A stretch of DNA of 64,000 nt from Gigantopelta aegis. Lineage: Eukaryota > Mollusca > Gastropoda > Neomphalida > Peltospiridae. Each line of letters opens with the position of its first letter. The first letter of the stretch is position 1. Positions 9,816 to 46,702 of this stretch are shown here, piece by piece. The position numbers and the translations under genes were made by a program. The notes under the pieces were generated by a model. That model was not told where the DNA came from, ran no database searches, and worked only from the letters and a program-made list of their open reading frames with translations. Where the stretch lies: positions 29,473,496-29,537,495 of the forward strand of contig NC_054709.1 of NCBI RefSeq assembly GCF_016097555.1. The letters run 5' to 3'.

Positions 9816-10208
9816 TCACATAGAACAGTTTTCCATGGGGACGACGCCCACCCCGACCCCTCCCTCGTGGGCGCTCATGGATGACACAAACGACCAGGTG
9901 TCGGTCGAAGGGTCGTACATCTCCACACAGTTGAGGTTCGCCTGTCCGTCGTATCCACCAATCGCATACACTTTACCGTAGGTCGCTGCCACTGCAACGC
10001 GGCTCCGCTTGACCTTCATCTGCTTGACGTACTCCCATGTGTTGGTCGTGGGGTCATAGCGCTCGACCGTCTTGAGGAACATGGCGCCGTCGTAACCCCC
10101 TACGGCGTACAGCTGTCCATTGAGTGCTGCGACACCGAGACGACAGCGCTTGGAGTTCATGGAGGCCACAGTTCTCCACAGTCCCGTGGTCATGTTGAAA
10201 CACTCAAC
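9816..10208 (-). CDS. KLHL18: KLHL18 exon 11, last coding exon (Kelch 4-6)
   Basis: Residues 440-569 ([60 protein letters not shown]), ending in the family's HEGGVGVG signature plus VVPMENCSM and TGA. Acceptor CTATTTCCAG|GTTGAG. The acceptor and exon start are copied about nine times just upstream in the transcript. Confidence 0.95.
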   Translation of the reverse strand, partial: VECFNMTTGLWRTVASMNSKRCRLGVAALNGQLYAVGGYDGAMFLKTVERYDPTTNTWEYVKQMKVKRSRVAVAATYGKVYAIGGYDGQANLNCVEMYDPSTDTWSFVSSMSAHEGGVGVGVVPMENCSM

Positions 10209-12543
10209 CTGGAAATAGAGAGAAAAATTATGGTGACTCAGTCTTTATAGTTCAAGATTTTCCACAGTTCCCTCATGTTGAAACATTCAACCTGGAAATA
10301 GAGATAAAAAAGATGGTGACTCAGTCTTTATAGTTCATGGTTCTACAGTCCTGTCGTCATGTTGAAACACTCAAATTGGAAATAAAGAGGAAAATGATGG
10401 TGACTCAGTCTTTATAGTTCATGATTCTCCACAGTCCTGTGGTCATGTTGAAACACTCAACCTGGCAATAGAGAGAGAAACGCAGGTGACTCAGCCTTTA
10501 TAGTTCATGGTTCTTCACAGTCCTGTCGTCATGTTGAAACACTCAAATTGGAAACAGAGAGAAATGATGATGAATCAGCCTTTATAGTTCATGGTTCTTC
10601 ACAGTCCTGTCGTCATGTTGAAACACTCAACCTGGAAACAGAGAGAAATGATGGTGACTCAGTCTTTATAGTTCATGGTTCTCCAGTCCTGTCGTCATGT
10701 TGAAACACTCAACCTGGAAATAGAGAGCAATGATGGTGACTCAGTCTTTATAGGTCTCAGTTCTACATAGTCCAGTCGTCATGTTGAAACAATTAACCTG
10801 GAGAAAAATGATGGTGACTCAGTCTTTATAGTTCTTGGTTCTCCACAGTCCCATGGTCATATTAAAACACTCAACCTGGAAATAGAGAGGAAAACGATGG
10901 TGACTCAGTCTTTATAGAAACAGAGAGAAAAATGATGGTGACTCAGTCTTTATAGTTCATAGTTCAAGACAGTCATGGAACGAGACCTTGTTAATCTACA
11001 TGTTACCAGACATTTATATTTACATTATGACTATCAAATAATTTCACAGACATACTGATACTTGTAGGCTCCATTTTTATTTGGGGGGGGGGGGGCACTA
11101 GTGTTGGGAATCAGTTGAAATTTCATCATGGTTCATCAGTCATAATCTGTTTTCACCAACCGATCAACTTTCGATTACACAATCGCTTACAATTACATAG
11201 AGAATAATACACGAGTGACCGTTGGATACCATTTATCTCACGAGTAGTCTATATAGAGAATAATACATAAGTGGCCATTAGATACCATTTATCTCACGAG
11301 TAGCCTATATAGAGAATACTACATGAGTGGCCGTTGGATACCATTTATCTCACGAGTAGCCTATATAGAGAATACTACATGAGTGGCCGTTGGATACCAT
11401 TTATCTCACGAGTAGCCTATATAGAGAATACTACACGAGTGGCCGTTAGGTACCATTTATCTCACGAGTAGCCTATATAGAGAATACTACACGAGTGGCC
11501 GTTAGGTACCATTTATCTCACGAGTAGCCTATATAGAGAATACTACACGAGTGGCCGTTAGATACCATTTATCTCACGAGTAGCCTATATAGAGAATACT
11601 ACATGAGTGGCCACTGGATACCATTTATCTCACGAGTAGCCTATATAGAGAATACTACACGAGTGGCCACTGGATACCATTTATCTCACGAGTAGCCTAT
11701 ATAGAGAATACTACATGAGTGGCCGTTGGATACCATTTATCTTACGAGTAGTCTATATTGAGAATGCTACACGAGTGGCCATTGGATACCATTTATCTTA
11801 CGAGTAGTCTATACTGAGAATAGTACATGAGTGACCGTTAAGATACCATTTATCTTACAGCGAGTTGTTTTAAAATGCATCTAACCAGCGAAACACATGT
11901 ACTTGCATGAATTATACTTCTTATGTAACTGAATTTTAAACAAAATTAATTAATTAATGTCTTTAAAAAAAATACATTTATAATACAGGTACAAGTGCGA
12001 GGGGGGGGAAGAGGTTGGGTCAACCCACTCTTGATCTAGCAAATTTTAATTTTTTTCAATATATTTTCCAGGGAAGCATACTCGACCAGTTATAAACTTT
12101 ACTCATCACAGTCTAAAACCCTCTCTGCATAAATTGCAGTACACCAGATAGCCCATACCACAGCCTTTGATATACCAGTCATGGTGCACTGGCTAGAACG
12201 AGAAATAGCCCAATGGGCCCACCAACAATGATCGATCCTACACAGACCACACATCAGGTAAGCGTTTTACCAATGGGCTACTTCCCGACCCTTGGGGGCG
12301 GTTAGATAGAGAAGTTTGTTAAATTACTTACCCACCCCAGATGAGGGGATGGGAATGGGGGGGGGGGGGGGAGGGTGCAAAAGCAAAAATGGGACAATGG
12401 TTTAGGATCAAACAAAATAAGGCTGAAATGAAAATTATGTAGGGTAGGTTAGTTTAGAAGAAAAACAAGTATTAATTTATTTTTGAAACTTCATTCACCT
12501 CTACAGGTCGAGATAAATTTTCACCTACATATTAATAATGCTA

Positions 12544-12576
<33 letters not shown>

Positions 12577-15500
12577 AGGGCTAGTTTTTTATTTTGGTGG
12601 GCTAGTGGAATTTACAGCAGCAGATGAAGATGCCAGGTGGGTGCAGGGAAGTAGAAAGAAAAAGAAAGAAATGTTTCACTCAACACATTTTATTTATGGT
12701 TATATGGCGTTGGACATACGGTTAAGGACCACAAAGATATTGAGAGAGGAAACCCGCTATCGCCACGTAATGGGCTACTCTTTTCGATTGGCAGCAAGGG
12801 ATGTTTTATATGCACCATCCCACAGACAGGATAGCACATACCATGGCCTTTGATGTACCAGTCATAGTGCACTGGTTGGAGTGAGAAATAGCCCAATAGG
12901 CCCACCGACGGGGATGGATCAAAGACTGACCGTGCATCAAGTGAACGCTCTACCACTGGAATATGTCCTGCCCCCTGCCTATTAATGATATCCCTGGAAG
13001 ATACTTACAGAGTCAAAGATGGACAAGCCGTCATGTCCGCCACAAGCGTAGATTTCCCCGTGAAGAATGGCGACTCCGGCTGCACTGCGGTACTTGTGCA
13101 TGCTGGTCGACATCACCCAGCTAATATCAAAAACAGTTGTCATTAAACATTCAACAAAAACAGTTGTCATTAAACATTCGACAAAAACAGTTGTCATTAA
13201 ACATTCGACAAAAACAGTTGTCATTAAACATTCGACAAAAACAGTTGTCATTAAACATTCAACAAAAACAGTTGTCATTAAACATTCGGCAAAAAACAGT
13301 TGTCATTAAACATTCAACAAAAACAGTTGTCATTAAACATTCAACAAAAACAGTTGTCATTAAACATTCAACAAAAACAGTTGTCGTTAAACATTCGGCA
13401 AAAAACGTTAAAAACTTTGTCTAGTTTAAAGTGACAGACACTAGTTTTTAAACACTACTGCATATTTTTTACCTTTAAAACCGCTTTTGATAATATAAAT
13501 CAGGGCCTGTGCTTATAAAACTTCTGGAGTCCGGACTCAATTAGATGATAACCATATATGGAGTTTTTAGATTTGCGGGTGTTATCGTCTATTTGATCCC
13601 GCAAATGTCATTTTTGACCGAATGTGTTAGCCTGAGGTTAAAAAATTAAACATTTGCGGGCATCAGACCCCAGGTTTGTAAACTAACTAAACTTAGTGTC
13701 CAATTTCATGGGCTGAAACTGTAGAATATGCACCTTTAAGGACAACACTAAAAATGTGATTTATTAATTAGTAAAAACTATTTTTAAAAGTTTATATTTT
13801 ACAGGGTATAATCTACCATACATTTTGGGGCCGTGGAACAGCCCCTTCCCCTAACGTAAATTCCAAATCCAACACCTAACTTTTTCCCCATTACGACCCA
13901 ACAGTTTCCCAATTAAGATTTCCAAAGTTTCTCTATCATGGTCAATTGGTACTCATAATCCCCTTCACATCCCACTCAGCAAGCAATTCTTTTGTCTTGT
14001 AATTTGGTGTCAATTCCACGATGGCGTCAACCTTTTGTTGTTATGCATGACTGGGTACTGCCTGTCGATGTGCTATTGGCAGAATAGCGTTCTGCTTGGG
14101 AGGAGGGTGCTGTTTTGTTGTTATGCATGACTGGGTACTGCCTGTCGATGTGCTATTGGCAGAATAGCGTTCTGCTTGGGAGGAGGGTGCTGTTTTGTTG
14201 TTATGCATGACTGGGTACTGCCTGTCGATGTGCTATTGGCAGAATAGCGTTCTGCTTGGGAGGAGGGTGCTGTTTTGTTGTTATGCATGACTGGGTACTG
14301 CCTGTCGATGTGCTATTGGCAGAATAGCGTTCTGCTTGGGAGGAGGGTGCTGTTTTGTTTAGATAATAATACATGAGTTTTCAACATGACCACAGGACTG
14401 TGGAGAACCATGAACTATAAAGACTGAGTCACCATCATTTCTCTCTCTATTTCCAGGTTGAGTGTTTCAACATGACGACAGGACTGTGTAGAACCAAGAA
14501 CTATAAAGACTGAGTCACCATCATTTTCCTCTCTATTTCCAGGTTGAGTGTTTCAACATGATGACAGGACTGTTCAGAACTATGAACTATAAAGACCGAG
14601 TCACCATCATTTTCCTCTATTTCCAGGTTGAGTGTTTCAACATGACGACAGGACTGTGGAGAACCATGAACTATAAAGACTGAGTCACCATCGTTTCTCT
14701 CTATTACCAGGTCGAGTGTTTCAACATGACTGTCGAGATCCTCCATTAACTATAAAGACTGAATCACCATTGGTTATCGCTATTTCCAGGTTTAGTGTTT
14801 CAGCATAACGACAGAAGTGTGGAGAACCATGAACTATAAAGACTGAGTCACCATTATTTCTCTCTATTTCCAGTTTGCGTGCAGGCCTTGACCTGAAGGT
14901 TTTCCAGTCCTCTATGTAAACCGAACTATTTCCACGGTACGAAGTGAGTCCACTGTATTTTTTTTAAAGGCCTAATCATATAATGAAAACTTCAAAAGCT
15001 TCAAAATATTATTGAAACACTCCAAGATATTGAAAACGAAATGTTCCCTTACCCTTATTCGAGTGCTCTACCAATTAAGCTAAATCCTGACCCCATTTCT
15101 TCAATTTATAATTAGCTGGGTGCGGTATTTAACTCAGTCGGTTAAAGGCTCACCTGAGGTGCTCGTGTCACAGGATCGAACCACCTCGGTGGATCCTTTC
15201 AACTACATGGGTTTTTCTCATTCCAACCAGTGCAACACAACTGGTCAAAGGTTGTGGTATGTGCTTTCCTGTCTGTGGCAAAGATGCTAAGGGAAAAAAT
15301 GTAGCAGGTTTCCTCTGATGACTATGTGTCAGAATTACCGAATGTCTGATATCCAACAGCTGATGATTAATTAATCAATGTGCTCTAGTGGTGTCGTTAA
15401 ACAAAAGAAACTTCTTCCTAACTTACTTTTAAAAAAGTTTGTTTGTTTAATGACACCACTAGAGCACATTGGAAGGAAGGAAGGAAATGTTTTATTTAAC

Positions 15501-18500
15501 GAAGCACTCAACACATTTTAATTACGGTTATATGGCGTCAGACATATGGTTAAGGACCACACAGATATTGAGAGAGGAAACCCACTGTCGCCACTTCATG
15601 GGCTACTCTTTTCGATTAGCTGCAAGGGATGTTTTATATGCACCATCCTATAGACAGGATAGCACATACCATGACTTTTGATGTACCAGTTGTGGTGCAC
15701 CGGCTGGAGCGAGAAATAGAGCACATTGATTTCTTAATCACCGGCTATTGGATGTCTATCATTTGGTAATTTGGATGATTAATTAATCAATGTGCTCTAG
15801 TGGTGTCATTAAACAAAACAGACTTTAATTTTAACTAGCTTCTTCTTTTCGTTCGCTTGTTGACTACACGTCATGGCCAGCAGTGACTATGAACGATACT
15901 GTTCTCTGTAGATCACTTCTTGTGCCACACAGCTTCTTCTGGAGAGTTGTATTTGTCCAGGTAGTCTCCCTCAGTTGCTGTAGGTTTATGCAGTCTTGGA
16001 TGACATGTTCGGTCGTCTGTTCTGCTTCTCCACAGGAGCTCATGGAAGAAGGTACTAGCCAGAACCTCTTATACATATGCTGGATCAGCCTGTTGTGTCC
16101 AGTCCTTAGTCGGAAAACTTAGACCTGTTCCTATTTTAACTAGCTCTTAACAATTATTAGATTGTTATTACGATTTCACTTACACATTGTTCTTGGGGTC
16201 ATAGAGTTCCACAGATCTGAGAGAAGACACCCCGTCATACCCACCACACACAAACAGCTTTCCGTTGAGCGAGGCGGCACCAAGAGCACTGCAAAACAAA
16301 ACTGAATTACTGCAAATATCGATCATTTATTTTTGTTCATCTTATTTCATTATTACTGGTGTAATACATAATATATATGCATGGAAATATACAGCTGTAT
16401 TGTTTTGTGTTGCAATGTGTTCTATTGTTCATCACATTTTTATTAATTGTAGTGAGACACAGTGAACAATACTTATCATACTCCCAAAAAATCTATCTTA
16501 TGGCCCATTCCTTGACGTGGTGAGGTATCTTGCATGTCTCAATGACTCGGAGAGCTGTGCCAGCTGGAGCATCAGCTCCTGGTAGGGTCACCCAACTATC
16601 TCATGGGTCACCCAACTATCTCATGGTCCATTCCTTGACGTGGTGAGGTAGCTTGCATGTCTCAATGACTCGGAGAGCTGTGCCAGCTGGAGAATCAGCT
16701 CCTGGTAGGGTCACCCAACTATCTCATGGTCCATTCCTTGACGTGGTGAGGTAGCTTGCATGTCTCAATGACTCGGAGAACTATGTCAGCTGGAGCATTA
16801 GCTCCTGGTAGGGTCACCCAACTATCTCATGGGTCATACAACTATTTCATGGTCCATTCCTTGACGTGGTGAGGTAGCTTGCATGTCTTAATGACTCGGA
16901 GAACTATGTCAGCTGGAGCATCAGCTCCTGGTAGGGTCACCCAACTATCTCATGGGTCACCCAACTATCTAATGGTCCATTCCTTGACGTGGTGAGGTAG
17001 CTTGAATGTCTCAATGACTCGGGGAGCTATGCCAGCTGGAGCATCAGTTCCTGGTAGGGTCACCCAACTATCTCATGGTCCATTCCTTGATGTGGTGAGG
17101 TAGCTTGCATGTCTCAATGACTCGGAGAGCTATGCCAGCTGGAGCATCAGCTCCTGGTAGGGTCACCCAACTATCTCATGGTCCATTCTTTGATGTGGTG
17201 AGGTAGCTTGCATGTCTCAATGACTCGGAGAGCTGTGCCAGCTGGAGAATCAGCTCCTGGTAGGGTCACCCAAGCTGGACTGGTCAAAAGGTAGAGATTA
17301 GACTAATATGGACCGGACAGACAGGACGTGAGTTAAGAAAGACAACTGTCTAGGAAAAGCAGCTTGCATGTCTCAATGACTCGGAGAACTATGCCAGCTG
17401 GAGCACCAGTTCCTGGTAGGGTCAACCAAGCTGAACTGGTCAAAAGGTAGAGACTAGACTAATATGGACCGGACAGACAGAGGACGTGAGTCAAGAAAGA
17501 CAACTGTCCTGGAGAAGCAAACTCCAAAATCAAAACTGGGCTGGAGAGGCTCAGAATCCTAGCAAGGAAACTCTCCTAGGAGAAGGAAAACTCCAAACTC
17601 AAACCAAGTCCACTGAAGTTAGAGTACAGAAGCTATGCATCAGCATTAGCGTGGAAACCGAAAGGAAATGTCTGTACATGCACCAAGCTCTCTGATCATC
17701 ATCATCATACTCCCATAATTGTAAAGTAATAAACGCGACTGTCGAATGCTCACCTTCTCTTGCAGTTCATGGCTGCGACTTTCTTCCAGCGATGCGAGTC
17801 CGGGTCGAACACCTCCACTGTACACAGTCTCTCCGATCCGTTGTAGCCGCCTATAGCGTACAGAAGACCTGCCAGTCGGAAACAAGGAAGGTTCTATTAC
17901 TTTGGCACCAGACTGTACATCGACGCATGTCGCACCGTTTGATGTGACCAGTCAAGGGTTGTTAATCCTTGGTCACATTCATTTCAGTCATGCCAGAAAA
18001 TACTAATTATTATTTTGAATTTAACGAAACAGCACATTATCAACTACATGTACTTAATAATATTACATTTTTAACGAAACATTTGTTGAAATATTATTAC
18101 CGAAAGTATTAGGAGTTAACCTTCTGACTACAACAGGTGAGATATCTTGCCCAACGTCGTGCCAGTCGACATACTGTACACAGTGCATTGCCCAATACAT
18201 ATTTCCCAACATTTTGCACACGACACTCACCGGAAATGTTTTTTTTGCAAAAGGAAGCAATTTATTTGACAGCATACTAGCTTTTGTTTGTTGTTCTTCA
18301 ATAGAAAATACCGTAGATTTTTGAGTTCAAACAGTGGTTTTCGGCAAGTATTCTCGCTTGACAACAAAGGCGGCATGTCGCGGTTATTGTCAGGGATTGA
18401 TAGCTGATTGTGATAGCTAATTTGACAATACATTTGATCGTTTTACAAACAACGAAAATCACCAAATGTTGGGATATGAATCGTAGTTGTGGGGTTTTTT

Positions 18501-21500
18501 AATTCTGGTCAGAAAACCACTGTTATCAGGAATAATAGACATAAATACTGGACAGCTGGCCACAAATGCTGGTATGCAAACGTGACTTCATTTTTTTGGG
18601 CCTAATTTTAATCAACATTAACCGATGTAAAATAAATTTTAAATTATAAAAACGCATGAAAATAATACCTACCAATTCAAATATGAACTTTATTTTATGC
18701 ATTTGTAAATGAATACAGTGTGCGATTTTGGTTTAAAAACTTTAAGTGTCATAAGGTCTCCCTGTTTGCAAATCTTTAGAGCCTGCCAACAACCCAGTGA
18801 GCCCTGCCGTGCATCTCCAGTAGAACAGAAGATACGCTAAATGTTTGTGAAACCATGTAAAAGATCGCTAAATTTTGAAATAGATGTTGACTGTCATTTG
18901 AAGAATCATATTGAATGTAATTCGTAAAAATAACTTTTACGAGCCACGCAGGCTCATATGCTAGCCATGCTAGAGAGTCCTATATGATTTTTGTGAACCT
19001 CGAGCTCCCAGACTCTTCTCAAAATCACACACTGTGAATATATGTGAGTAAAAATTATAAACTTGTACCCACTCAACGTGGTTTTTGTCAAAAATTAATC
19101 CAGTAGTGTAAAGGTTGAAAAAGAGAAGAGGAAACAGAACACATACCATTGAGTACTGACACGCCCACTCTACTTCTCATTGTACTCATGGTCTAAAGGT
19201 TGAAAAAGAGAAGAGGAAACAGAACACATACCATTGAGTACTGACACGCCCACTCTACTTCTCATTGTACTCATGGTCTAAAGGTTGATAAAGAGAAGAG
19301 GAAACAGAACACATACCATTGAGTACTGACACACCCACTCTACTTCTCATTGTACTCATGGTCTAAAGGTTACAAAAGAGAAGAGGAAACAGAACACATA
19401 CCATTGAGTACTGACACGCCCACTCTACTTCTCATTGTACTCATGGTCTAAAGGTTACAAAAGAGAAGAGGAAACAGAACACATACCATTGAGTACTGAC
19501 ACACCCACTCTACTTCTCATTGTACTCATGGTCTAAAGGTTACAAAAGAGAAGAGGAAACAGAACACATACCATTGAGTACTGACACACCCACTCTACTT
19601 CTCATTGTACTCATGGTCTAAAGGTTAATAAAGAGAAGAGGAAACAGAACACATACCATTGAGTACTGACACACCCACTCTACTTCTCATTGTACTCATG
19701 GTCTAAAGGTTACAAAAGAGAAGAGGAAACAGAACACATACCATTGAGTACTGACACGCCCACTCTACTTCTCATTGTACTCATGGTCTAAAGGTTGATA
19801 AAGAGAAGAGGAAACAGAACACATACCATTGAGTACTGACACACCCACTCTACTTCTCATTGTAGTCATGGTCTAAAGGTTGATAAAGAGAAGAGGAAAC
19901 AGAACACATACCATTGAGTACTGACACACCCACTCTACTTCTCATTGTAGTCATGGTCTAAAGGTTGATAAAGAGAAGAGGAAACAGAACACATACCATT
20001 GAGTACTGACACACCCACTCTACTTCTCATTGTACTCATGGTCTAAAGGTTAATAAAGAGAAGAGGAAACAGAACACATACCATTGAGTACTGACACACC
20101 CACTCTACTTCTCATTGTACTCATGGTCTAAAGGTTAATAAAGAGAAGAGGAAACAGAACACATACCATTGAGTACTGACACACCCACTCTACTTCTCAT
20201 TGTACTCATGGTCTAAAGGTTACAAAAGAGAAGAGGAAACGGAACACATACCATTGAGTACTGACACGCCCACTCTACTTCTCATTGTACTCATGGTCTA
20301 AAGGTTAATAAAGAGAAGAGGAAACAGAACACATACCATTGAGTACTGACACGCCCACTCTACTTCTCATTGTACTCATGGTCTAAAGGTTACAAAAGAG
20401 AAGAGGAAACAGAACACATACCATTGAGTACTGACACACCCACTCTACTTCTCATTGTACTCATGGTCTAAAGGTTAATAAAGAGAAGAGGAAACAGAAC
20501 ACATACCATTGAGTACTGACACGCCCACTCTACTTCTCATTGTACTCATGGTCTAAAGGTTACAAAAGAGAAGAGGAAACAGAACACATACCATTGAGTA
20601 CTGACACACCCACTCTACTTCTCATTGTACTCATGGTCTAAAGGTTAATAAAGAGAAGAGGAAACAGAACACATACCATTGAGTACTGACACACCCACTC
20701 TACTTCTCATTGTACTCATGGTCTAAAGGTTGATAAAGAGAAGAGGAAACAGAACACATACCATTGAGTACTGACACACCCACTCTACTTCTCATTGTAC
20801 TCATGGTCTAAAGGTTGATAAAGAGAAGAGGAAACAGAACACATACCATTGAGTACTGACACACCCACTCTACTTCTCATTGTAGTCATGGTCTAAAGGT
20901 TGATAAAGAGAAGAGGAAACAGAACACATACCATTGAGTACTGACACACCCACTCTACTTCTCATTGTAGTCATGGTCTAAAGGTTACAAAAGAGAAGAG
21001 GAAACGGAACACATACCATTGAGTACTGACACACCCACTCTACTTCTCACTGTACTCATGGTCTAAAGGTTACAAAAGAGAAGAGGAAACGGAACACATA
21101 CCATTGAGTACTGACACACCCACTCTACTTCTCATTGTACTCATGGTCTAAAGGTTGATAAAGAGAAGAGGAAACAGAACACATACCATTGAGTACTGAC
21201 ACACCCACTCTACTTCTCACTGTACTCATGGTCTAAAGGTTACAAAAGAGAAGAGGAAACGGAACACATACCATTGAGTACTGACACACCCACTCTACTT
21301 CTCTTTGTAGTCAGGGTCTAAAGGTTGATAAAGAGAAGAGGAAACAGAACACATACCATTGAGTACTGACACGCCCACTCTACTTCTCATTGTACTCATG
21401 GTCTAAAGGTTGATAAAGAGAAGAGGAAACAGAACACATACCATTGAGTACTGACACGCCCACTCTACTTCGCACTGTACTCATGTCTAAAGGTTGATAA

Positions 21501-24500
21501 AGAGAAGAGGAAACTGAACACATACCATTGAGTATTGACACACCCACTCTACTTCTCACTGTACTCATGGTCTAAAGGTTACAAAAGAGAAGAGGAAACA
21601 GAACACATACCATTGAGTACTGACACACCCACTCTACTTCTCATTGTACTCATGGTCTAAAGGTTACAAAAGAGAAGAGGAAACTGAACACATACCATTG
21701 AGTACTGACACGCCCACTCTACTTCTCATTGTACTCATGGTCTAAAGGTTACAAAAGAGAAGAGGAAACAGAACACATACCATTGAGTACTGACACGCCC
21801 ACTCTACTTCTCATTGTACTCATGTTCTAAAGGTTACAAAAGAGAAGAGGAAACGGAACACATACCATTGAGTACTGACACACCCACTCTACTTCTCATT
21901 GTACTCATGTTCTAAAGGTTACAAAAGAGAAGAGGAAACAGAACACATACCATTGAGTACTGACACACCCACTCTACTTCTCATTGTACTCATGGTCTAA
22001 AGGTTAATAAAGAGAAGAGGAAACAGAACACATACCATTGAGTACTGACACACCCACTCTACGTCTCATTGTAGTCATGGTCTAAAGGTTACAAAAGAGA
22101 AGAGGAAACAGAACACATACCATTGAGTACTGACACACCCACTCTACTTCTCATTGTACTCATGGTCTAAAGGTTAATAAAGAGAAGAGGAAACAGAACA
22201 CATACCATTGAGTACTGACACACCCACTCTACTTCTCATTGTACTCATGGTCTAAAGGTTACAAAAGAGAAGAGGAAACAGAACACATACCATTGAGTAC
22301 TGACACACCCACTCTACTTCTGATTGTACTCATGGTCTAAAGGTTGATAAAGAGAAGAGGAAACAGAACACATACCATTGAGTACTGACACGCCCACTCT
22401 ACTTCTCATTGTACTCATGGTCTAAAGGTTACAAAAGAGAAGAGGAAACAGAACACATACCATTGAGTACTGACACACCCACTCTACTTCTCATTGTACT
22501 CATGGTCTAAAGGTTAATAAAGAGAAGAGGAAACAGAACAAATACCATTGAGTACTGACACGCCCACTCTACTTCTCATTGTACTCATGGTCTAAAGGTT
22601 AATAAAGAGAAGAGGAAACAGAATACATACCATTGAGTACTGACACACCCACTCTACTTCTCATTGTACTCATGGTCTAAAGGTTGATAAAGAGAAGAGG
22701 AAACAGAACACATACCATTGAGTACTGACACACCCACTCTACTTCTCATTGTACTCATGGTCTAAAGGTTGATAAAGAGAAGAGGAAACAGAACACATAC
22801 CATTGAGTACTGACACACCCACTCTACTTCTCATTGTATTCATGGTCTAAAGGTTGATAAAGAAAAGAGGAAACAGAACACATACCATTGAGTATTGACA
22901 CACCCACTCTACTTCTCATTGTACTCATGGTCTAAAGGTTAATAAAGAGAAGAGGAAACAGAACACATACCATTGAGTACTGACACACCCACTCTACTTC
23001 TCATTGTACTCATGGTCTAAAGGTTAATAAAGAGAAGAGGAAACAGAACACATACCATTGAGTACTGACACACCCACTCTACTTCTCATTGTACTCATGG
23101 TCTAAAGGTTAATAAAGAGAAGAGGAAACAGAACACATACCATTGAGTACTGACACACCCACTCTACTTCTCATTGTACTCATGGTCTAAAGGTTAATAA
23201 AGAGAAGAGGAAACAGAACACATACCATTGAGTACTGACACACCCACTCTACTTCTCATTGTACTCATGGTCTAAAGGTTAATAAAGAGAAGAGGAAACA
23301 GAACACATACCATTGAGTACTGACACACCCACTCTACTTCTCTTTGTAGTCAGGGTCTAAAGGTTAATAAAGAGAAGAGGAAACAGAACACATACCATTG
23401 AGTACTGACACACCCACTCTACTTCTCATTGTACTCATGGTCTAAAGGTTAATAAAGAGAAGAGGAAACAGAACACATACCATTGAGTACTGACACACCC
23501 ACTCTACTTCTCATTGTACTCATGGTCTAAAGGTTACAAAAGAGAAGAGGAAACAGAACACATACCATTGAGTACTGACACACCCACTCTACTTCTCATT
23601 GTACTCATGGTCTAAAGGTTGATAAAGAGAAGAGGAAACAGAACACATACCATTGAGTACTGACACACCCACTCTACTTCTCATTGTACTCATGGTCTAA
23701 AGGTTGATAAAGAGAAGAGGAAACAGAACACATACCATTGAGTACTGACACACCCACTCTACTTCTCATTGTAGTCATGGTCTAAAGGTTGATAAAGAGA
23801 AGAGGAAACAGAACACATACCATTGAGTACTGACACACCCACTCTACTTCTCATTGTACTCATGGTCTAAAGGTTGATAAAGAGAAGAGGAAACAGAACA
23901 CATACCATTGAGTACTGACACGCCCACTCTACTTCTCATTGTACTCATGGCTTCAGCAACAATCCATCGTCCAACGACCGGGTCAAAATATTCAACAGTA
24001 CTTAAAGAATCTCCTAGAGAATAAAAAAAGGAAAGAAAACTGCATTTTAGAATCAAAAGCTTAAATTTCATTTCAAATTATTTTCGAGCTTATACCCAGC
24101 TAAGGTTCAAGTACACAGGCCTGGGCACATACCTCAGCTATCTGGGCTGTCTGTCCAGGACAGTGGGTTAGTGGTGATGGGAGAGAAGAGGGTGTGCTGG
24201 TCTTACACCTACCCACTTGGTCGTTAAAACTCTTCCTGGGTGGGAGCCGGTACCGGGCTGTGAACACTGTACCTACCAGCCTTACACTGTATGTCTGATG
24301 GCTTAACCACGACACCACCGAGGCAAAGCAATCTTTTTTTCTAAAATTTTAAGCTGTAAGGTTAAACAATTTTTTTTAATTTCATACTTTTTTTTTATCA
24401 TACATTAAAATAACATTAATAGGTAAGATGCAATTTTCATTAATCTTGGACTTTGAAAAAGAAAACATGAAATTAAATGCAAAAACTTAAAAGCTTAACA

Positions 24501-27500
24501 GGTAAATGCAAAAATTGTTGCCAAAATCTAGCCCTTTAAATTTGTCAAATACCTTGCTTTTTATTAGATATAGATCCAAATGTAACAGTCAAAAATGTTC
24601 AATCAGAAAATACTGAAGAAATTCCTTAATAATTATTTGCAAGAAGCAAACTTTAAAATTGTGGTGACTCAGTCTTTTGAATATATTTGCCTTTCACTAA
24701 CATACAAACCTGATAACACAAGTCCACTGATAGTTAAATGATGGTGACTCTTGAATATATTTGCCTTTGACTAATACCACACACATCTGACTTTAGCAGG
24801 TCTCAACTTTATGGTGACTCAGTTTTTTAATACATTTGCCTTTCTCAACACACAAACCTGACAACACAACTCAACTGATAGCAGTTCTCAAAATGATGGT
24901 GACTTTTGAATATATTTGCCTTTGACTCATACCACACAAATCTAACTATAGCGGTTCTCAAATTTTTTATGGTGACTCAGTCTTTTGAATATATTTGTCT
25001 TTCTCAACACACACACCTGACGATGTCAGTCCACCGACTGCGTAGATGACTCCGGGGATGTCCGTGCAGCACCGCGGTCTTGTCTTGAACGTCTGTAGCA
25101 GCGTCCGTCGCTCCGGCATCAGGTGATAGTCACGAGCCTCATCCAGCAGATCTCTGGATAAAAAAAAGATAAAGACACCACTAGAGCAAACTGATTTATT
25201 AATCATCAGCTAAACATTTGGTAATTTTTACATATACATGTAGACTGGAAAACAATCTTTCTTATCTCAAACATTTATCAAACACTGATGTCTTTGTACT
25301 GTTTTGTATCTGCACTGTAGAGAACTTTGTACCTGCACTGTGATTAACTTTGTACTGTTTTGTACCTGCACTGTAAAGAACTTTGTACTATCTTGTACCT
25401 GCACTGTAAAGAACTTTGTACTGACTTGTACCTGCACTGTGAAGAACTTTGTACTGTATTGTACCTGCACTGTAAAGAACTTTGTACCGTTTTGTACCTG
25501 CACTGTAAAGAACTTTGTACTGACTTGTACCTGCACTGTAAAGAACTTGTACAGTTTTGTACCTGCACTGTAAAGAACTTTGTACTGTATTGTACCTGCA
25601 CTGTAAAGAACTTTGTACTGTTTTGTACCTGCACTGTAAAGAACTCTTGACAAGCTCCTCTGTTGCTACTTTGTCTGACAGATACTGGGGAGTCAGCAGC
25701 GGTAGTCGCACTCTGACCATCAACTCGGGTAGGTGTTCCTTCCGTTTGTTCATCACGTGTTTGACCCACGCCATCACCGCTTCAAACACCTACAGTTAGA
25801 AATGTGGCTTATTTATAAAAACAACAACAACAACAAGAGCATGGAAAGGACAGGGTGGGTCCTGCAGACTTTAATAAAGTTTGATAACAATGAGTCCTGG
25901 GCCAGTGCTTATAAAACCTTAGAGCCTAGACTGGTGTCAGCAGAAAATTTCACTAAATTATCTATTAAACTTTAAAAATTAGAGAAACCCAGTTATTTTC
26001 TACCAAAGGATCAATTATTTCGCCAAATTGAAATAATTAAATTTTCGTTACATTCTTTACCATATAACATCATCCAAATTGGTCCAGACGTAGCAATGGG
26101 AGTTTGTTCATTTCTCAATATACGCAAAAATTACGTCGTCAGGGAATGTCATAGCTGATGACGTCATTTTATATGGGTAAGTTGTCTTATTGAATATTAT
26201 TGTTTATGGACCAAAATAGCTCAAAATAAAGTATGAAGTTATAGTGTTATTATTAGCAAGCATGATTCTAATGTAATTATAAGTATTATCTGTTATTTCT
26301 TTTATGTTCATCGGAGAAAATGAACTAAAAATATCATACGCAAACTTATGTGAGAATGGCTTCACCATTTCACGGATGATTTTTTTTTTTCATACCCCGA
26401 TGAACGTAATAACTGACAATCCTTAAACAAAATTCGCTGGTTGTTTTTGAAATTTGCAAATTTTGCAAGTGCCAGAGCTAGACGTACTACACTGAAATCT
26501 CTAATAACGTGATAAGGGCCTGCTACACGATACGATAGAATCGGACCAAGTCACTCACACCAGTCAATCAGACCGACTGAAACGTGACGTCATTAAAAAA
26601 AACATCCTTGCTGTAACCAAGGTAAACAATATCATGTGTATTGATAAGGCGACTGTCCTAACGTTTCTGTCTTTATATAAATGACTGGACACACCCCACA
26701 AAGAGTTGTGCCCCTGATACAACTCTATGAGCTGTTGGGTTTGTGCCGACGACAAGCAACAGTTTTCCGCCATTACACTCAGAACGTGGAGTTTATCTGT
26801 GCCATTATCTGATTGGTCAATGTCACCAAACGTCCGATTCAAACGTATGAAAATAGAACAAGTTCTAAACTTCGACTCGTATGAGTGACTCGGGCTGATT
26901 CAATTGTATGACATGCCACACGTTACGATTTGATTGTTGGTGTTGCAATCCGAGTCACTCGTATTGTGTAGCAGGGCCTATACGCATACAATATGGATGG
27001 TGTTGCCATGGTATCCAAGTCTCAGACTCTAAAAATTCTTTATAAGCACTGGGGCTGGTTGCTGTTTCGAACCCTGTGCTGAAATTTCACTACTCTCTAG
27101 ATCATACACTGACCTGTTCCTCGTTGTTCACATTGAGTTCGTCTCTCGATATGATGTCAGTGAGGTCCGCGCGATCCAGACCCAGGAACTCCTCCGTGCC
27201 CGCCACCTGCTTGAAGCTGTTCTGTATGAATTTGTTGGCCGACTCGACGAGGTCCGAACACATGTACTGGTCAGCGAACGCCCGCACCGACAGACAGTTC
27301 TGTGGGTGAAGTCTGCAACATGTAATAATTTATATTGTGTTGGAAAATCACTAGGTTTTAGAAACAATAATTTAAGGCTTAATAAATAATTTGTCAAAGT
27401 TATTTGCTAGCCCTACATGTATGCACTTTTTCATAGACACACCACAACCCTTGATATATTAGTCGTAATGCATTGGTTGCGATGGAAAAAAATCTGATAA

Positions 27501-30500
27501 AGTAATCCACAATTGCAGTTCAATTTTACCTCAGAAGACAACAGCATTTACATCAGAAAATTTAGAGGAGCATGCATTTTGCTTCAGAAAAAGATTCAAC
27601 ATTGGTATTTTAAAAGAAAGTATGTTCAACTAAACAGCAAGAAATAGCGTATGAATATGTAAATAAGCTCTAGGGGAATCCCCCAAATTTCAGACCTCTT
27701 GTGCTTCTTTTATTGCCACAAATGGATTTGATTAGCCAATCAAATTCCACATTATATGCAGAGTGAATTAGAATTACATTTTTTTCAAAACTGTTTTAAT
27801 TAACAACACGACTGGGGCACATTGATTTATTAATCATCGGCTATTGGATGCCAAACATTTGGGAATTCTGACACGTAGTCATCAGAGGAAACCTGCTACA
27901 TTTTTCCTAACACAGCAAGGGATTTTTTATATGCACTCTCCCACAGACAAGAAAGCACATACCACGGCCTTTCACCAGTTGTGGTACACTGGATGGAACG
28001 AGAGAAAAAAACCTAATAAGCTGAATGAATCGACCGAGGTAGTTCAATCCTGCAATGCAAGTATCTCAAGCGAGCACTCAACCTGCCCAAAGAATTATAA
28101 ATAAAGAAGGAAATGTTTTGTTTCATGACGCACTCAACACATTGTATTTACGGTTATATGGCGTCAGACATATGATTAAGGACCACACAGATATTGAGGG
28201 AGAGGAAACCCGCTGTCACCACTTCATGGGCTACTCCTTTCAATTAACAGCAAGGGTTCTTTTATATGCACCATCCCATAGACAGGATAGCACATACCAC
28301 TGCCTTTGATGTACCAATCATGGTGCACTGGTTGGAGCGAGAAATAGCCCAATGGACCCACCGATGGGGATCGATCCCAAACCGACCACGCATCAAGCGA
28401 GCACTTTACCACTGGGCTACATCCCATCCCTAATTATAAATAATGTAAAAAAGAAAAAACTACCGTACCTTTCTTTGAGAAAGTCGCAGCATGCCTCCTT
28501 GACACTCTGAAGGTGTAGAAAGCTGGCGGCGATGAGCAGGGACTGAACATTGTTCTGGTCTAACTCAACCTTCCCCGTGTACGCAAAGTTCACCAGCGAC
28601 TCCAGAGCACTACAATTAAATAGTGGTGTAACAATACATCGAACTATCGATATGTTGCGATAATCAGTGCCTCGACAGCAATACATCGATGGTTAATTCA
28701 ACTATGGATAACTATCGCAATTGTTTGCTCAACTATCGATAGTTTCGATAGTATGCATAGTCAAATAATTAAGTCTACAACCAATGCATGATTTCACTAC
28801 CTAGTAACATTATTTCAAATAATAAAGTACAAACACAGACATACAGTTTTGCGAAATATCTATTCATATTATTGTTATCAAGTAATTTAAGAACTCGCAA
28901 TACTATTGCAATACTATCACAATAGTACTATCACTATTGCAACACTATCACAATAGTACTATCACTATTGCAACACTATCACAATAGTACTATCACTATT
29001 GCAACACTATCACAATAGTACTATCACTATTACAACACTATCACAATAGTACTATCACTATTGCAACACTATCACAATAGTACTATCACTATTGCAACAC
29101 TATCACAATAGTATTATCACTATTGCAACACTATCACAACACTATTATCACTATTGCAATACTATCACAATAGTATTTTAACTGTCACAATACTACTGCA
29201 ATGGTAAAACTGACCGCAATAGTCACCCTTACAATTAAAGGTAAGGTTTGTCTTGTTTAACGACACCACTAGACCACATTGACTAATTAATCTGACACTG
29301 TAACAAGGCTAGCAGATCCCAAACTGACCGCGCATCAAGCGGGCGCTTTGCTACTGGGCTATCTCCCAGTAGAAATGTTCGCCAAAGTATCTACGTATCT
29401 ACAATTTTAACAATGGCAGAAACCCTTTTATATTTTTAACATTTATCATTTATTTCGACAAATTAAAATAAAATTTGCCAATTGTTTCTGAAATTTGGTG
29501 AATGCCAGAGCTAGCCCTGAATCAAGTTTGTTTAACAACACCACTAGAGCACACTGATTAATTAATCATCAGCTATTTGATGTCAAACATTTGTTAATTA
29601 TGACTCATAGTCATCAGTTATAGTTTGTTTTGTTTAACGACACCATTAGAGCACACCTGTGATTTATTTTCTGGTCACTGAATGATGCAGCATGCTACTG
29701 TTTAATTAATTTATTAGAAGAGGCACATTTAAATATATACCATGAAACCGGACCTGAGCATACTGAAGTCCTGTCAAAACCAGCCAAATTTCATGGACCC
29801 AAATTTTCTCTTACTTAAACCATGTATTCAAACTGGGCCCGTGCTTATAAAACTTAAAGTCTAGACTTTAACGTAATGCTATTTGAATGGTCTTGCCATG
29901 ACGTTAAAGTCTGGACTTTATTAAAATCTAGACTTTAAGGTTTATAAGCACGGGGCCAGAACCTGTCAATTTCAAAACCGGATTGTTTTTATTTGCTCAG
30001 AAATATAAAATTCTTAATAATTAACCTGAACAAAGCGGCAGACCAGAATTTGTGTGTATATCAGGGCTTCTACTTCTAGAATTTCTACAAAATCCACTGG
30101 TAATGGGATCAGTGATTAAAAACATTTACTAGCCGCGATTAAAAATTCACTAGCCACGATTAAAAATTCACTAGCCCTACTTTACTATTAATACAATTTT
30201 ATCAGAAGTTTTAGTGACAGCAGTAAATTTTATCCAGCGGCCCAAAAATGCTCTTATTTATATCTCAACAACGGCACTGTTGTCAGCGCAGTCATTAAAT
30301 TTGAACCCTGTTGCACGATACTGAATTTTAAAATTGTATTCAAACTTTGTATAGATGATGTAAAACACGTCTTGTAGAAACCTGGCATGTTGCCATGGTA
30401 ACAGACTCACCTTGCATCAATGCCTTGCATGCTTATCTCGTCTTGCTTGGCTTCGACCATGTCGTGAGTAAACATTGCGTTAAAGTAGGGAATCGTGGCC

Positions 30501-33500
30501 GCCAGAATGATGCGATGACAGGAAAATTTCTGTTCTCCAACCTTCAAAAAATTTAAAGTCTGGTTAAGGACATATGGTTAAGGACCATACAGATATTGAA
30601 AGAGGAAACCGGCTGTCGCCACTTCATGGACTACTTTTTTCAATTACCATCAAGGGATCTTTTATACGCACAATCCCACAGACAGGATAACACTTACCAC
30701 AGCCTTTGATATACCAGTTGTAGGGCACTGGCTGGAATGAGATATAGCCCAATGGGTCCACCAACGGGGATGAATCCCAGACCGACCGCGCATCAAGTGA
30801 GCGCTGTACCACTGAGCTACATTCCACCCCAATATGGAGTTACTTGTACTTGAGAACTGCCAGTCCAAGCAAACAATCAGTGACAATTGGACGTTTGAGA
30901 CATACATTTTAAACTAGGTTTACTAGCAAGCACACGTATTTCAAATCAATTTATAATAATTATTGTTTACAACTAGCTATTACTACCTATGTTAATTTTT
31001 ATACACTTTAAACATTGTCGCCATGACAAAGTTTATGAAAAAAAACAGCAAAATATTTTAGTAATAAAAAAAAGTGTTTTACGTGACACCGACCAATTAA
31101 ACCACTCCTTGTAATGCTACAAATGCTAATGCTAATGTTTGGATATACACCCACCCACTCACATAATATTTGAATGGCCCCCGATGTCTAGGGCGGGCCG
31201 TAGCCCAGTGATAAAACACTCGTCTGATCCATGGCCGATCCCAGTCGGTGGGCCCGTTGGGATATTTCTCGTTCAAGTTGGTCGACTGGTATAGCAAAGG
31301 TTGTGGTATGTACATCCTCATATGTATGTTTTATACTGAATAGTGTCCATACATTGTTTAGTGTCCAACTCAGGATTATAGCCAGTCACTCAAAATAAAG
31401 ACAAAGGAAACGTCTTTATAGATGTATGCTATTGTCAAAATGCTGGCGTGTGACTGTTTTTCACAATTGGAAAAAAACAGGGCTTCATGAATTTTTTTAA
31501 AATCCACTAGCCATGAGATCAGTGATAAAAAATTTTTTACTAGCCATGATTAAATATTCACTAGCCCTACTTTACTTTAGTTAATACAATTTTACTAAAT
31601 TATAGTAATAATCCAATATGTGACCTAAAGAGGGAGATAGAACTTAAAAACACTAACATTGGAGGTTGGGGTGGGGTCAGGATATTCATATTTACAAAAT
31701 AGACTTAACTGCAACATTTGACAATTTTGTTTTTCACTATTTACTAGCCTACACTGAATATCACTAATCATGGGAGTGGGGCTACCATAATCTAGAAGCC
31801 CTGAAAAAAAAAACTCTTTCAGTTTCACGCCAACATGCTCCAAGACTTTTGTATTTTATCTGCAAGGGGCAGAGGGATGTATCATGTCGGTGCTAATATT
31901 ACATCAGTAGACAAATAGCATAAATAATTTACAATTTCTCCACTGAATATGTTTATAATAAAATCTGTAAACTTTGAATAATTGTATATATGTGAGAAAC
32001 AATATTTAATCCTCACCAGCACACACACTTTGTGGAAATGAACTCAACCATGTGACCTACATTTTACAACATTATGTGATATGACAAAATGCTCAAAACA
32101 TGACTACAATAGAAAGTAAGACTTGTTGTAGCTAGTGTAACACACCTACAGGAAGAAAACGTTTTATTTAACGATGCACTCAACATTTTGTATTTATGGT
32201 TATATGGCATCGGACATATATATGGTTAAGGACCATATATATATTGAGAGAGGAAACCCGCTGTCATCACTTCATGGGATACCCTATTTTTGATTAGCAT
32301 CAAGGGATCTTTTATATAGACAGACAGGATAGTACAAGTACATACCACAGCGTTTGATATACCATTTGTGGTACACTGGCTGGAGTGAGAAATAGCCCAA
32401 TGGCACACCGACAGGGATTGATCCCAGAACGACTGTGCATTAAGCGAACGCTTTACCACTGGGCTACGTCCCGCCCCGTCAAGTCTGAAAGGTCAGGGGT
32501 TCATCTATCTCTGCATCACGTCAGCGGGGATCGACCCTAGACCGACTGCACATCATATAAGCGCTTTACCACTGGGCTACAGCCAGCCCTAGACATCAGC
32601 AGCATTTCATTATTAGATTACAAGACGTAAACTGAATAATAAGTACATTTTAGCATATACTATATTATCATAAAGAACGAGATTAATTTTTTTTTATTTT
32701 GACTAAAATGCAAATATGTTACTGGTGAATATATATTTAGATTGGCGAAAGAAAATGAAGATTGGCGAATTTTTTGGTGAACAAAAATAGCCACCCACGG
32801 CTAGCCCTGATTTACTAATATGTAGCTGGTCACTTGTCTTTCTATATTTCAGTTGATGACACTATCTCACCACTGGGCTTGTGTTGGTGACATTATCTCA
32901 TTTATTTTATTAGTTCTGTTTATTCAAGTGTCATTGTGTCGCACTACTAGTAGGCGTAGTGGATTAAAAATAAATTCTAGAAGCCCTGATCAAGTCGGTC
33001 CTGTCAAATGTCGTTGAATCTCATTATCTGATGTCAAAGTCAACGTTGGGCTCAACATGTCCATGATACATCCTCCTATGGGATACGTCCGATCTGTCAA
33101 ATAGCAGGGCTTCTAGATTATGGTAGCCCCACTCCCATGGCTAGTGATATTCAATGTTGGGCTAGTAAATAACTACTATTGCCATGCCCGATGGCTAGTG
33201 AAAAAAAAAAATTGTCAAATGTCTATTTTGTAAATATGAATATCCTGCCCCAACCCCAAACCTAGTTGTTTTTAAACTCTCTTTCTCTTTAGGTGACATG
33301 TCTGATTATTACCATTATTTAGTTAAATTGTATTAACTTAAAGTAAAGTAGGGCTAGTGATTTTTTAATTCAGGCAAGTAAATTTTTTAAATCACTGATC
33401 CCATGGCTAGTGGATTTTATAAAAATTCTAGAAGCCCTGCAAATAGTCCAGTCCAGTTTAACCCTCCCACTGGTACTTGCTCCAAGGTTCCCAATCACTG

Positions 33501-36763: not shown

Positions 36764-46088
<9,325 letters not shown>

Positions 46089-46434
46089 TTTCTTTTGACG
46101 ATTTGCTTTCAGAACGCTGAAGGTAAAAGTCGCCGTCTGTTTTGTTGTACGCTTTCTCACTTATTTTTTTTTTTTTATATTTATATACAGCCCATCAGTC
46201 GGTCGTCATCAGTTTATAGGAAGGAAATGGTTTATTTAACAACGCAGTTGTCGGTTTATCTTCTCTATTATTACAATCATTAAGTGTTATGTCAAATGTT
46301 AACGGCCGCAATGTCAATTTTATCTGTCAGGATTTACTGCTCCCCATCCCCCGTCTCCCCCCGTTTCCCACGGAACTCTATGCTGTTCATTCCATCGCTG
46401 GACAGAGGTGTCATTTAGCTCAGTCGGTTGAGTG

Positions 46435-46634
46435 NNNNNNNNNNNNNNNNNNNNNNNNNNNNNNNNNNNNNNNNNNNNNNNNNNNNNNNNNNNNNNNNNN
46501 NNNNNNNNNNNNNNNNNNNNNNNNNNNNNNNNNNNNNNNNNNNNNNNNNNNNNNNNNNNNNNNNNNNNNNNNNNNNNNNNNNNNNNNNNNNNNNNNNNNN
46601 NNNNNNNNNNNNNNNNNNNNNNNNNNNNNNNNNN
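46435..46634. other. Assembly gap (200 N)
   Basis: An exact run of 200 N, the usual placeholder for a gap of unknown size. The left edge is a tRNA-like SINE head (TTTAGCTCAGTCGGTTGAGTG), the right edge is the 70-bp repeat. Missing MRPL45 5' exons are unlikely to be here unless the real gap is large. Confidence 0.99.
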
Positions 46635-46702
46635 GGGGGTCTACCCAAAACTTTTTTTTCTTGGCAGGGGGTTTCCCCATAATAATTTCTCAATGTCAGT
46701 AT
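46635..46702 (+). repeat. 70-bp direct repeat, left copy (next to the assembly gap)
   Basis: GGGGGTCTACCCAAAAC, a T-run, GGCAGGGGGTTTCCCCATAA and TTTCTCAATGTCAGTAT recur at 49,147-49,216 with few changes. On the minus strand both copies encode RNYYGxTPxQEKKxVLGRP. Spacing between copies is about 2,515 bp. The left copy runs into the gap. Confidence 0.88.

Follow-up and report, generated by a model that had tools for sequence, protein, structure and literature searches.

How does the spliceosome choose the donor of the real exon when 57 near-identical donors stand in a row? KLHL18 of the gastropod Gigantopelta aegis, a deep-sea vent snail, raises this question, in a window that comprises the whole 64,000-nucleotide stretch of DNA analyzed here. 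The coding span of the gene (9816..34106, minus strand) holds 11 coding exons for a protein of 569 aa; the exon chain, with its splice sites, gives a single 1710-nt frame, and the product is 100% identical, with 100% query coverage, to the annotated G. aegis kelch-like protein 18, carrying BTB and BACK domains and six Kelch_1 stretches. Exon 7 (23906..24013, minus strand) measures 108 nt, the last 45 nt of which are copy 1 of a tandem array that covers the exon 7 donor and fills most of the 6037-nt intron 7. In the annotated protein, exon 8 follows directly on the first donor of exon 7, that of copy 1, which is consistent with undisturbed splicing; since this protein was predicted on the very contig and assembly analyzed here, the join is no independent proof.

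For the array (19109..23950, minus strand), TRF reported a period of 85 bp, 57.0 copies, 97% matches and a score of 8914. The 57 tandem copies of the exon 7 donor claimed in a preliminary description of this DNA are thus real. Each unit combines 39 nt of the intron start with 46 nt from the end of exon 7, and the 45-nt overlap of array and exon shows that the unit spans the exon–intron boundary. The authentic exon end is copy 1, the outermost, and the remaining 56 copies are intronic; the junctions of the array with unique sequence are clean. All 57 copies contain ATG/GT, extended to GTATGT in 56 and to GTATTT in one, and TTTAG is present in every one of the 56 intronic copies, which bears out the proposal of up to 56 pseudo-exons with both splice signals. 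These pseudo-exons are 46 nt long in 55 cases and 45 nt in one, and the spacer between units is 39 nt in 56 of 56, as had been described.

The same description held that each unit carries an acceptor. This stands as far as the TTTAG is concerned, but it is not a copy of the exon 7 acceptor, because the intron that follows the last donor reads CAACCTTTACACTACTGG, without AG. Judging from the sequence, the unit TAG seems to have arisen at the tandem junction. With an AG in each copy, each is therefore a complete pseudo-exon.

The interspersed variant types noted earlier were also recovered: 24 unit types occur among the 56 copies, with 17 of the 85 columns variable. Neighboring units resemble each other slightly more than they do in shuffled orders (a value as low came up in 39 of 2000 shuffles), with no steady fall of similarity with distance; local exchange would predict a greater likeness of adjacent units. 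None of the four GT and AG columns varies. We do not take this as a sign of selection on the splice signals, because so few columns vary at all that zero of four is expected about four times in ten by chance.

Taken together, a unit that spans the boundary, an authentic edge in the outermost position and splice signals in the copies are the anatomy of a mirage. Mirages, whose original description is cited as Canestro et al. 2002, are reported from amphioxus in Adh3, in the globins BflGb6 and BflGb9 and in troponin C, with similar imperfect repeats in PGBD5 (PMC3087553, PMC3902484). In the accessible text of these papers, as in the KLHL18 arrays, the repeats lie across an exon–intron boundary at 5′ or 3′ edges, the authentic edge lies within the cluster and many copies carry splice signals. 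Unit lengths are comparable as well (10–72 bp in amphioxus Adh3 and 150–160 bp in the globins, against 85 bp at KLHL18 exon 7), whereas copy numbers differ widely, with 57 at exon 7 against 6 units in one BflGb6 haplotype, 3 in the other and at most 7 in PGBD5. The host is a mollusc rather than a lancelet. Unlike the amphioxus mirages, the exon 7 copies each contain an AG, seemingly made by the junction, and KLHL18 differs from the amphioxus mirage genes in having three boundary-spanning arrays and an inverted one, known here from genome sequence. In the literature on boundary repeats that we searched, repeats called mirages came up solely for lancelets, where copies are few, and a VNTR that includes a donor was found in one human gene; boundary-spanning arrays in molluscs were not found in the literature searched, most subscription journals lying outside it.

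We consider it probable that the exon 7 array is a mirage, with transcripts spliced mainly from copy 1. A tandem duplication would by chance have crossed the 3′ edge of exon 7 and founded a minisatellite, the number of units may then have grown within intron 7 by unequal exchange or slippage, and selection on the protein would have retained copy 1 as the real exon end. The KLHL18 transcript would most likely be spliced chiefly from this copy, because it alone is attached to the full 108-nt exon and to the pyrimidine-rich acceptor of exon 7 (16 of 17 pyrimidines), while the other 56 donors are those of pseudo-exons of 45–46 nt that follow 39-nt spacers. If an inner donor or a pseudo-exon were used now and then, the reading frame would nearly always run into a stop within a unit, and the mRNA would presumably decay.

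An alternative is that the array works as a brake: pseudo-exons and decoy donors would divert transcripts into nonsense-mediated decay, in a proportion that depends on copy number, or would lead to exon 8 being skipped, and the level of KLHL18 would be set in this way. The near-universal splice signals are in its favor, and so are the frames. In 55 of 56 copies, an included pseudo-exon would bring a stop once 7 codons of the unit have been read, and reading through the first spacer brings one after 20 codons; the earlier statement that a TAG is met at once thus holds for the stop but not for its immediacy, and fails altogether for one copy. For a 46-nt copy of consensus sequence, the stop precedes the last coding junction by 355 nt, and for this reason decay of such an mRNA would be expected. 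In the five pseudo-acceptors that were inspected, the pyrimidine tracts (14–15 of 17) exceed those of seven of the ten real acceptors (9–12 of 17), which also speaks for a brake. A point against splicing mainly from copy 1 is that the exon 7 donor itself is weak: it matches the U1 complement at six of nine positions, no donor of the gene scores lower, and six of the ten KLHL18 donors share this value. A yUnAy branch point 15–45 nt upstream was found in none of the five inspected pseudo-acceptors; three have a match 8–12 nt from the AG end and two have none within 60 nt. As five of the ten real acceptors likewise have no match at 15–45 nt, branch-point matches do not separate pseudo-acceptors from real ones, and we dropped a missing branch point as an argument against the former.

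A precedent for such a brake comes from human ABCA7, where a 25-bp VNTR in intron 18 includes the exon 18 donor (PMC5954066). The accessible text of that study reports that one-unit retention occurs, with a frameshift and a premature stop, and that with longer VNTRs exon 19 is skipped more often and expression is lower. Like the KLHL18 array, the ABCA7 VNTR is intronic and lies directly at an exon, its first two bases being the true donor GT; its unit, however, starts at this GT and excludes the exon end, whereas the KLHL18 unit takes the exon end in. For ABCA7, alleles, transcripts and expression were measured, while the KLHL18 array is known from one assembly. Against a brake, one-unit retention in ABCA7 is reported not to vary with VNTR length (PMC5954066), and the accessible text on amphioxus describes mirages as not interfering with regular splicing (PMC3087553, PMC3902484), although the globin authors allow that copied signals could act as cryptic sites. 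The intact GT and AG columns lend the brake no support either, as explained above. We therefore think a working brake unlikely, and minor leakage beside mainly correct KLHL18 splicing appears likelier than the control by poison exons or decoys that the preliminary description proposed.

KLHL18 contains other arrays besides that at exon 7. Three in all cross an exon edge, at exons 5, 7 and 11, and in each the true edge stands at the exon end. At the exon 5 donor, TRF reported 9.7 copies of a 33-bp unit (25326..25645, minus strand), in which ten copies comprise the true donor and nine further CAG/GTACAA sites. Of these extra donors, the first two would lengthen the protein in frame, by 11 or 22 aa, and the other seven would shift the frame; a degraded copy directly downstream of the array reads GTGCAGATAC and has lost its GT. 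At the exon 11 acceptor, the TRF array has 8.9 copies of an 84-bp unit (10171..10917, minus strand), and the eight decoy acceptors read CCAG in six cases and CCAA in two. Use of any of the six CCAG decoys would lead to a stop after 10–18 codons. An inverted copy of this array lies in intron 9 (14374..14881, plus strand, antisense to KLHL18) and is 90% identical, over 498 aligned positions, to the array in intron 10. The computed duplex of the two has an energy of −739.5 kcal/mol, against −180 to −209 kcal/mol for five mononucleotide shuffles, and it is possible that such pairing around exon 10 would favor skipping of that exon or formation of a circle. A further array, of 10.2 copies of a 27-bp unit (13128..13404, minus strand), is purely intronic and ends 7 nt upstream of exon 10. 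In the neighboring gene, a degraded array of 113–125-bp units (44039..44550, minus strand), supported by four alignments of units to the exon edge, lies at the acceptor of a thyroglobulin type-1-like exon (43911–44040, donor end read by eye), which matches PF00086 with an E value of 4.6e-4, just under the cut-off (20.0 of 20.6 bits).

The same chromosome was sampled in 20 evenly spaced stretches of 10 kb, and minisatellites occupy 15.7% of the 189,050 non-N bases covered. On this minisatellite-rich chromosome, the exon 5 donor and exon 11 acceptor arrays probably arose by an event of the same type as the exon 7 array. When nine seed units were placed at random in KLHL18 (units of at least 20 bp, overlapping TRF rows merged by hand, the inverted array left out as a copy of another), the mean was 0.33 boundary-spanning arrays, and three or more occurred in 0.3% of 100,000 trials; when the array at exon 7 was disregarded, two or more of the other eight spanned a boundary in 2.5%. 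We regard this excess as a hint of something beyond chance and not as proof, because the gene was noticed through one array and the overlap rule was chosen afterwards. A more far-reaching proposal is that exon edges were repeatedly turned into arrays (exons 5, 7 and 11, with the inverted array flanking exon 10), whose varying lengths tune productive splicing and which supply ready-made exons, one of them in frame; we hold this to be unlikely.

The exon 7 array is local: a whole-genome DNA search with two of its units returned at least 25 matches, a lower bound since the search skips very common words, and all matches listed fall inside 19109–23950. A dispersed repeat or introner-like element was rejected on the same ground. 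Short tandem duplications also create potential splice sites in potato RdRp, an example of intron gain by tandem genomic duplication (PMC4974935), and in Lipomyces stwintrons, where a donor was duplicated (PMC7138796). Unlike what the accessible text of these papers describes, no new intron is evident in KLHL18, where 39 nt separate the units, all inner copies sit within an intron that was already there and the 569-aa form is annotated. Intron gain by AGGT tandem duplication was likewise set aside, since the unit reads ATG/GT and TTTAG/ACC, the spacer is 39 nt and the annotated protein has no new intron. The link between minisatellites and splicing reported for C. elegans (PMC4039745) is of another kind: the repeats described in its accessible text are dispersed and lie close to alternative exons.

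Copy number and unit order could also be partly a product of assembly, through collapse, expansion or smoothing of the repeats. A published G. aegis genome, which we assume to be the present assembly, was built from PacBio reads with wtdbg2, Racon and Pilon (PMC7895826), short-read polishing can in our judgment smooth repeats, and one amphioxus mirage was, according to its authors, apparently misassembled in the draft genome (PMC3087553). Nevertheless, the 24 interspersed unit types, the clean junctions with unique sequence and the many other arrays along the sampled chromosome argue against an artifact, and the minimum read length of 8 kb chosen for the published assembly (PMC7895826) is enough to span 4.8 kb. 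We consider such an assembly effect very unlikely. It is more doubtful still, to the point of being scarcely credible, that an exon is being born from the sole 45-nt unit (21442..21486, minus strand), although it has CCTTTAG before it and GTATGT after it, has no stop and would in frame give a protein of 584 aa repeating 14 Kelch-blade residues, and although the globin paper proposes mirages as a source of new introns and exons (PMC3087553), since no other unit has changed in length, one such change easily fits the frame by chance, the insert would in our judgment lengthen a conserved propeller, and the unit is absent from the annotated protein.

The KLHL18 arrays are a large mollusc case of the repeats known from lancelets as mirages. 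With splicing mainly from copy 1 as the preferred reading, a further question is whether more copies bring more leakage or exon skipping, as is reported for exon 19 of ABCA7 (PMC5954066) in the case of skipping. Three boundary arrays in one mollusc gene, one of them of 57 copies, suggest that such arrays may arise generally where genomes are rich in minisatellites. Splice sites were duplicated on purpose in classic experiments, and the KLHL18 array is a natural version of them.

The KLHL18 coding chain comprises 11 exons on the minus strand and encodes a 569-aa protein in which BTB, BACK and six Kelch_1 stretches are recognised. The protein is identical over its full length to the kelch-like protein 18 annotated for the vent snail Gigantopelta aegis, which places the window in that species' genome. 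We also observed a GC donor at intron 1 (AAG|GCAAGT, 33993-34001). Exon 7 lies at 23906-24013 (minus strand), and its last 45 nt form copy 1 of a donor-spanning array at 19109-23950 (minus strand; period 85, 57 copies, 97% matches), which confirms the 57-copy, 85-bp array of the preliminary description. In the sense direction, each unit consists of 39 nt from the intron start followed by 46 nt from the exon 7 end. The intron-derived spacer runs from GTATGT through a pyrimidine stretch to CCTTTAG; its claimed length of 39 nt holds in 56/56, and TTTAG closes all 56, so that every intronic unit indeed carries an acceptor signal. The exon-derived part (the pseudo-exon) has the 46 bases attributed to it in 55 of 56 cases and 45 nt in the other. 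The donor ATG|GT is present in 57/57 copies, extended to GTATGT in 56 and to GTATTT in one. The 56 units fall into 24 types, with 17 of the 85 columns variable.

The unique intron past the last donor reads CAACCTTTACACTACTGG and contains no AG, for which reason the AG of the units seems to have been created at the unit-unit joint. When the unit was compared with the 1.15-Gb genome, all 25 matches listed fell inside the 19109-23950 array; the unit is therefore local sequence.

Exon 7 is not the only KLHL18 exon with such an array at its edge. The exon 5 donor lies in a 33-bp array with nine extra CAG|GTACAA donors. Use of the first or second of these would lengthen the protein in frame, by 11 or 22 residues, and the remaining seven would shift the frame; farther downstream, one more copy is degraded and no longer has its GT. 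The exon 11 acceptor lies in an array of 84-bp units (10171-10917) with CCAG kept in 6/8 decoy acceptors, whose use is predicted to give a stop after 10-18 codons. Because a copy of this array in intron 9 (14374-14881; 90% identity over 498 aligned positions) is inverted, the two flank exon 10 (13009-13120) as an inverted pair; they could pair in the transcript, favouring exon 10 skipping or circular RNA. A 27-bp array ends 7 nt upstream of exon 10. The neighbouring gene has a degraded acceptor array as well (44039-44550): it adjoins a thyroglobulin type-1-like exon (43911-44040, minus strand; Pfam score just under the family cut-off), and its units are diverged copies of that exon's acceptor edge. 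Elsewhere in the window, open frames resemble by eye a Tc1/mariner-type transposase (54673-55629, plus strand) and a reverse transcriptase (40847-41470, minus strand), and an N run at about 46430-46640 marks a gap or masked stretch.

In a simulation run after the data were seen, nine seed units placed at random in the gene yielded on average 0.33 arrays on exon boundaries, and at least three in 0.3% of 100,000 trials (post hoc); with the exon 7 array set aside, at least two of the other eight fell on boundaries in 2.5% (post hoc). The same chromosome was sampled in 20 evenly spaced stretches of 10 kb; these held 55 minisatellite arrays with units of at least 20 bp, which together occupied 29,686 of 189,050 non-N bases (15.7%). 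A share of about 16% is, in our judgement, unusually high, and with arrays this common on the chromosome, some must cross exon edges.

The preliminary description proposed that array copies act as poison exons or donor decoys lowering KLHL18 output, with a stop met at once on unit inclusion. The stop is present in 55/56 copies but comes after 7 codons, the common read-out being DHEYNEK. Read-through of the first spacer adds 13 codons and reaches the first unit's same stop after 20. For a consensus 46-nt copy this stop lies 355 nt upstream of the last coding junction, so decay of an mRNA carrying it would be expected. One unit (21442-21486, minus strand) has lost a base and, at 45 nt, is in frame; its inclusion is predicted to yield a 584-aa protein. 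The 39-nt spacer is far below any intron between KLHL18 coding exons, the shortest being 475 nt. Pyrimidines occupy 14-15 of 17 tract positions in the five pseudo-acceptors inspected, versus 9-12 in 7/10 real acceptors. None of these five pseudo-acceptors has a yUnAy match 15-45 nt upstream; since 5/10 real KLHL18 acceptors likewise have none, the branch point fails to discriminate between the two.

Tandem repeats spanning exon-intron boundaries are known in amphioxus Adh3 and globin genes as mirages. The authors describe splice signals in many copies, with the potential to serve as cryptic sites, and repeat numbers varying between haplotypes; in their view the data suggest that regular splicing is undisturbed (PMC3087553). 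A second study adds troponin C and PGBD5, reports that the Adh and TnC mirages generate no aberrant mRNAs, and mentions an unconfirmed exon placed inside the PGBD5 repeats by genome annotation (PMC3902484). The human ABCA7 intron 18 VNTR starts with the true donor GT; one-unit retention gives an out-of-frame mRNA and did not vary with VNTR length, blocking decay raised premature-stop transcripts, and longer VNTRs show more exon 19 skipping and lower expression (PMC5954066). A poison-exon role for the KLHL18 array, as put forward in the preliminary description, is possible and has a partial human precedent. The most probable reading of the exon 7 array is as a mirage of very large size, one of several minisatellites that span exon boundaries in KLHL18, and exon 7 is most likely spliced mainly at its first donor. 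Within the literature searched, five features appear to be new: the taxon, the number of copies, a unit that forms a complete pseudo-exon, the presence of one unit in frame, and the grouping of several boundary arrays in KLHL18.
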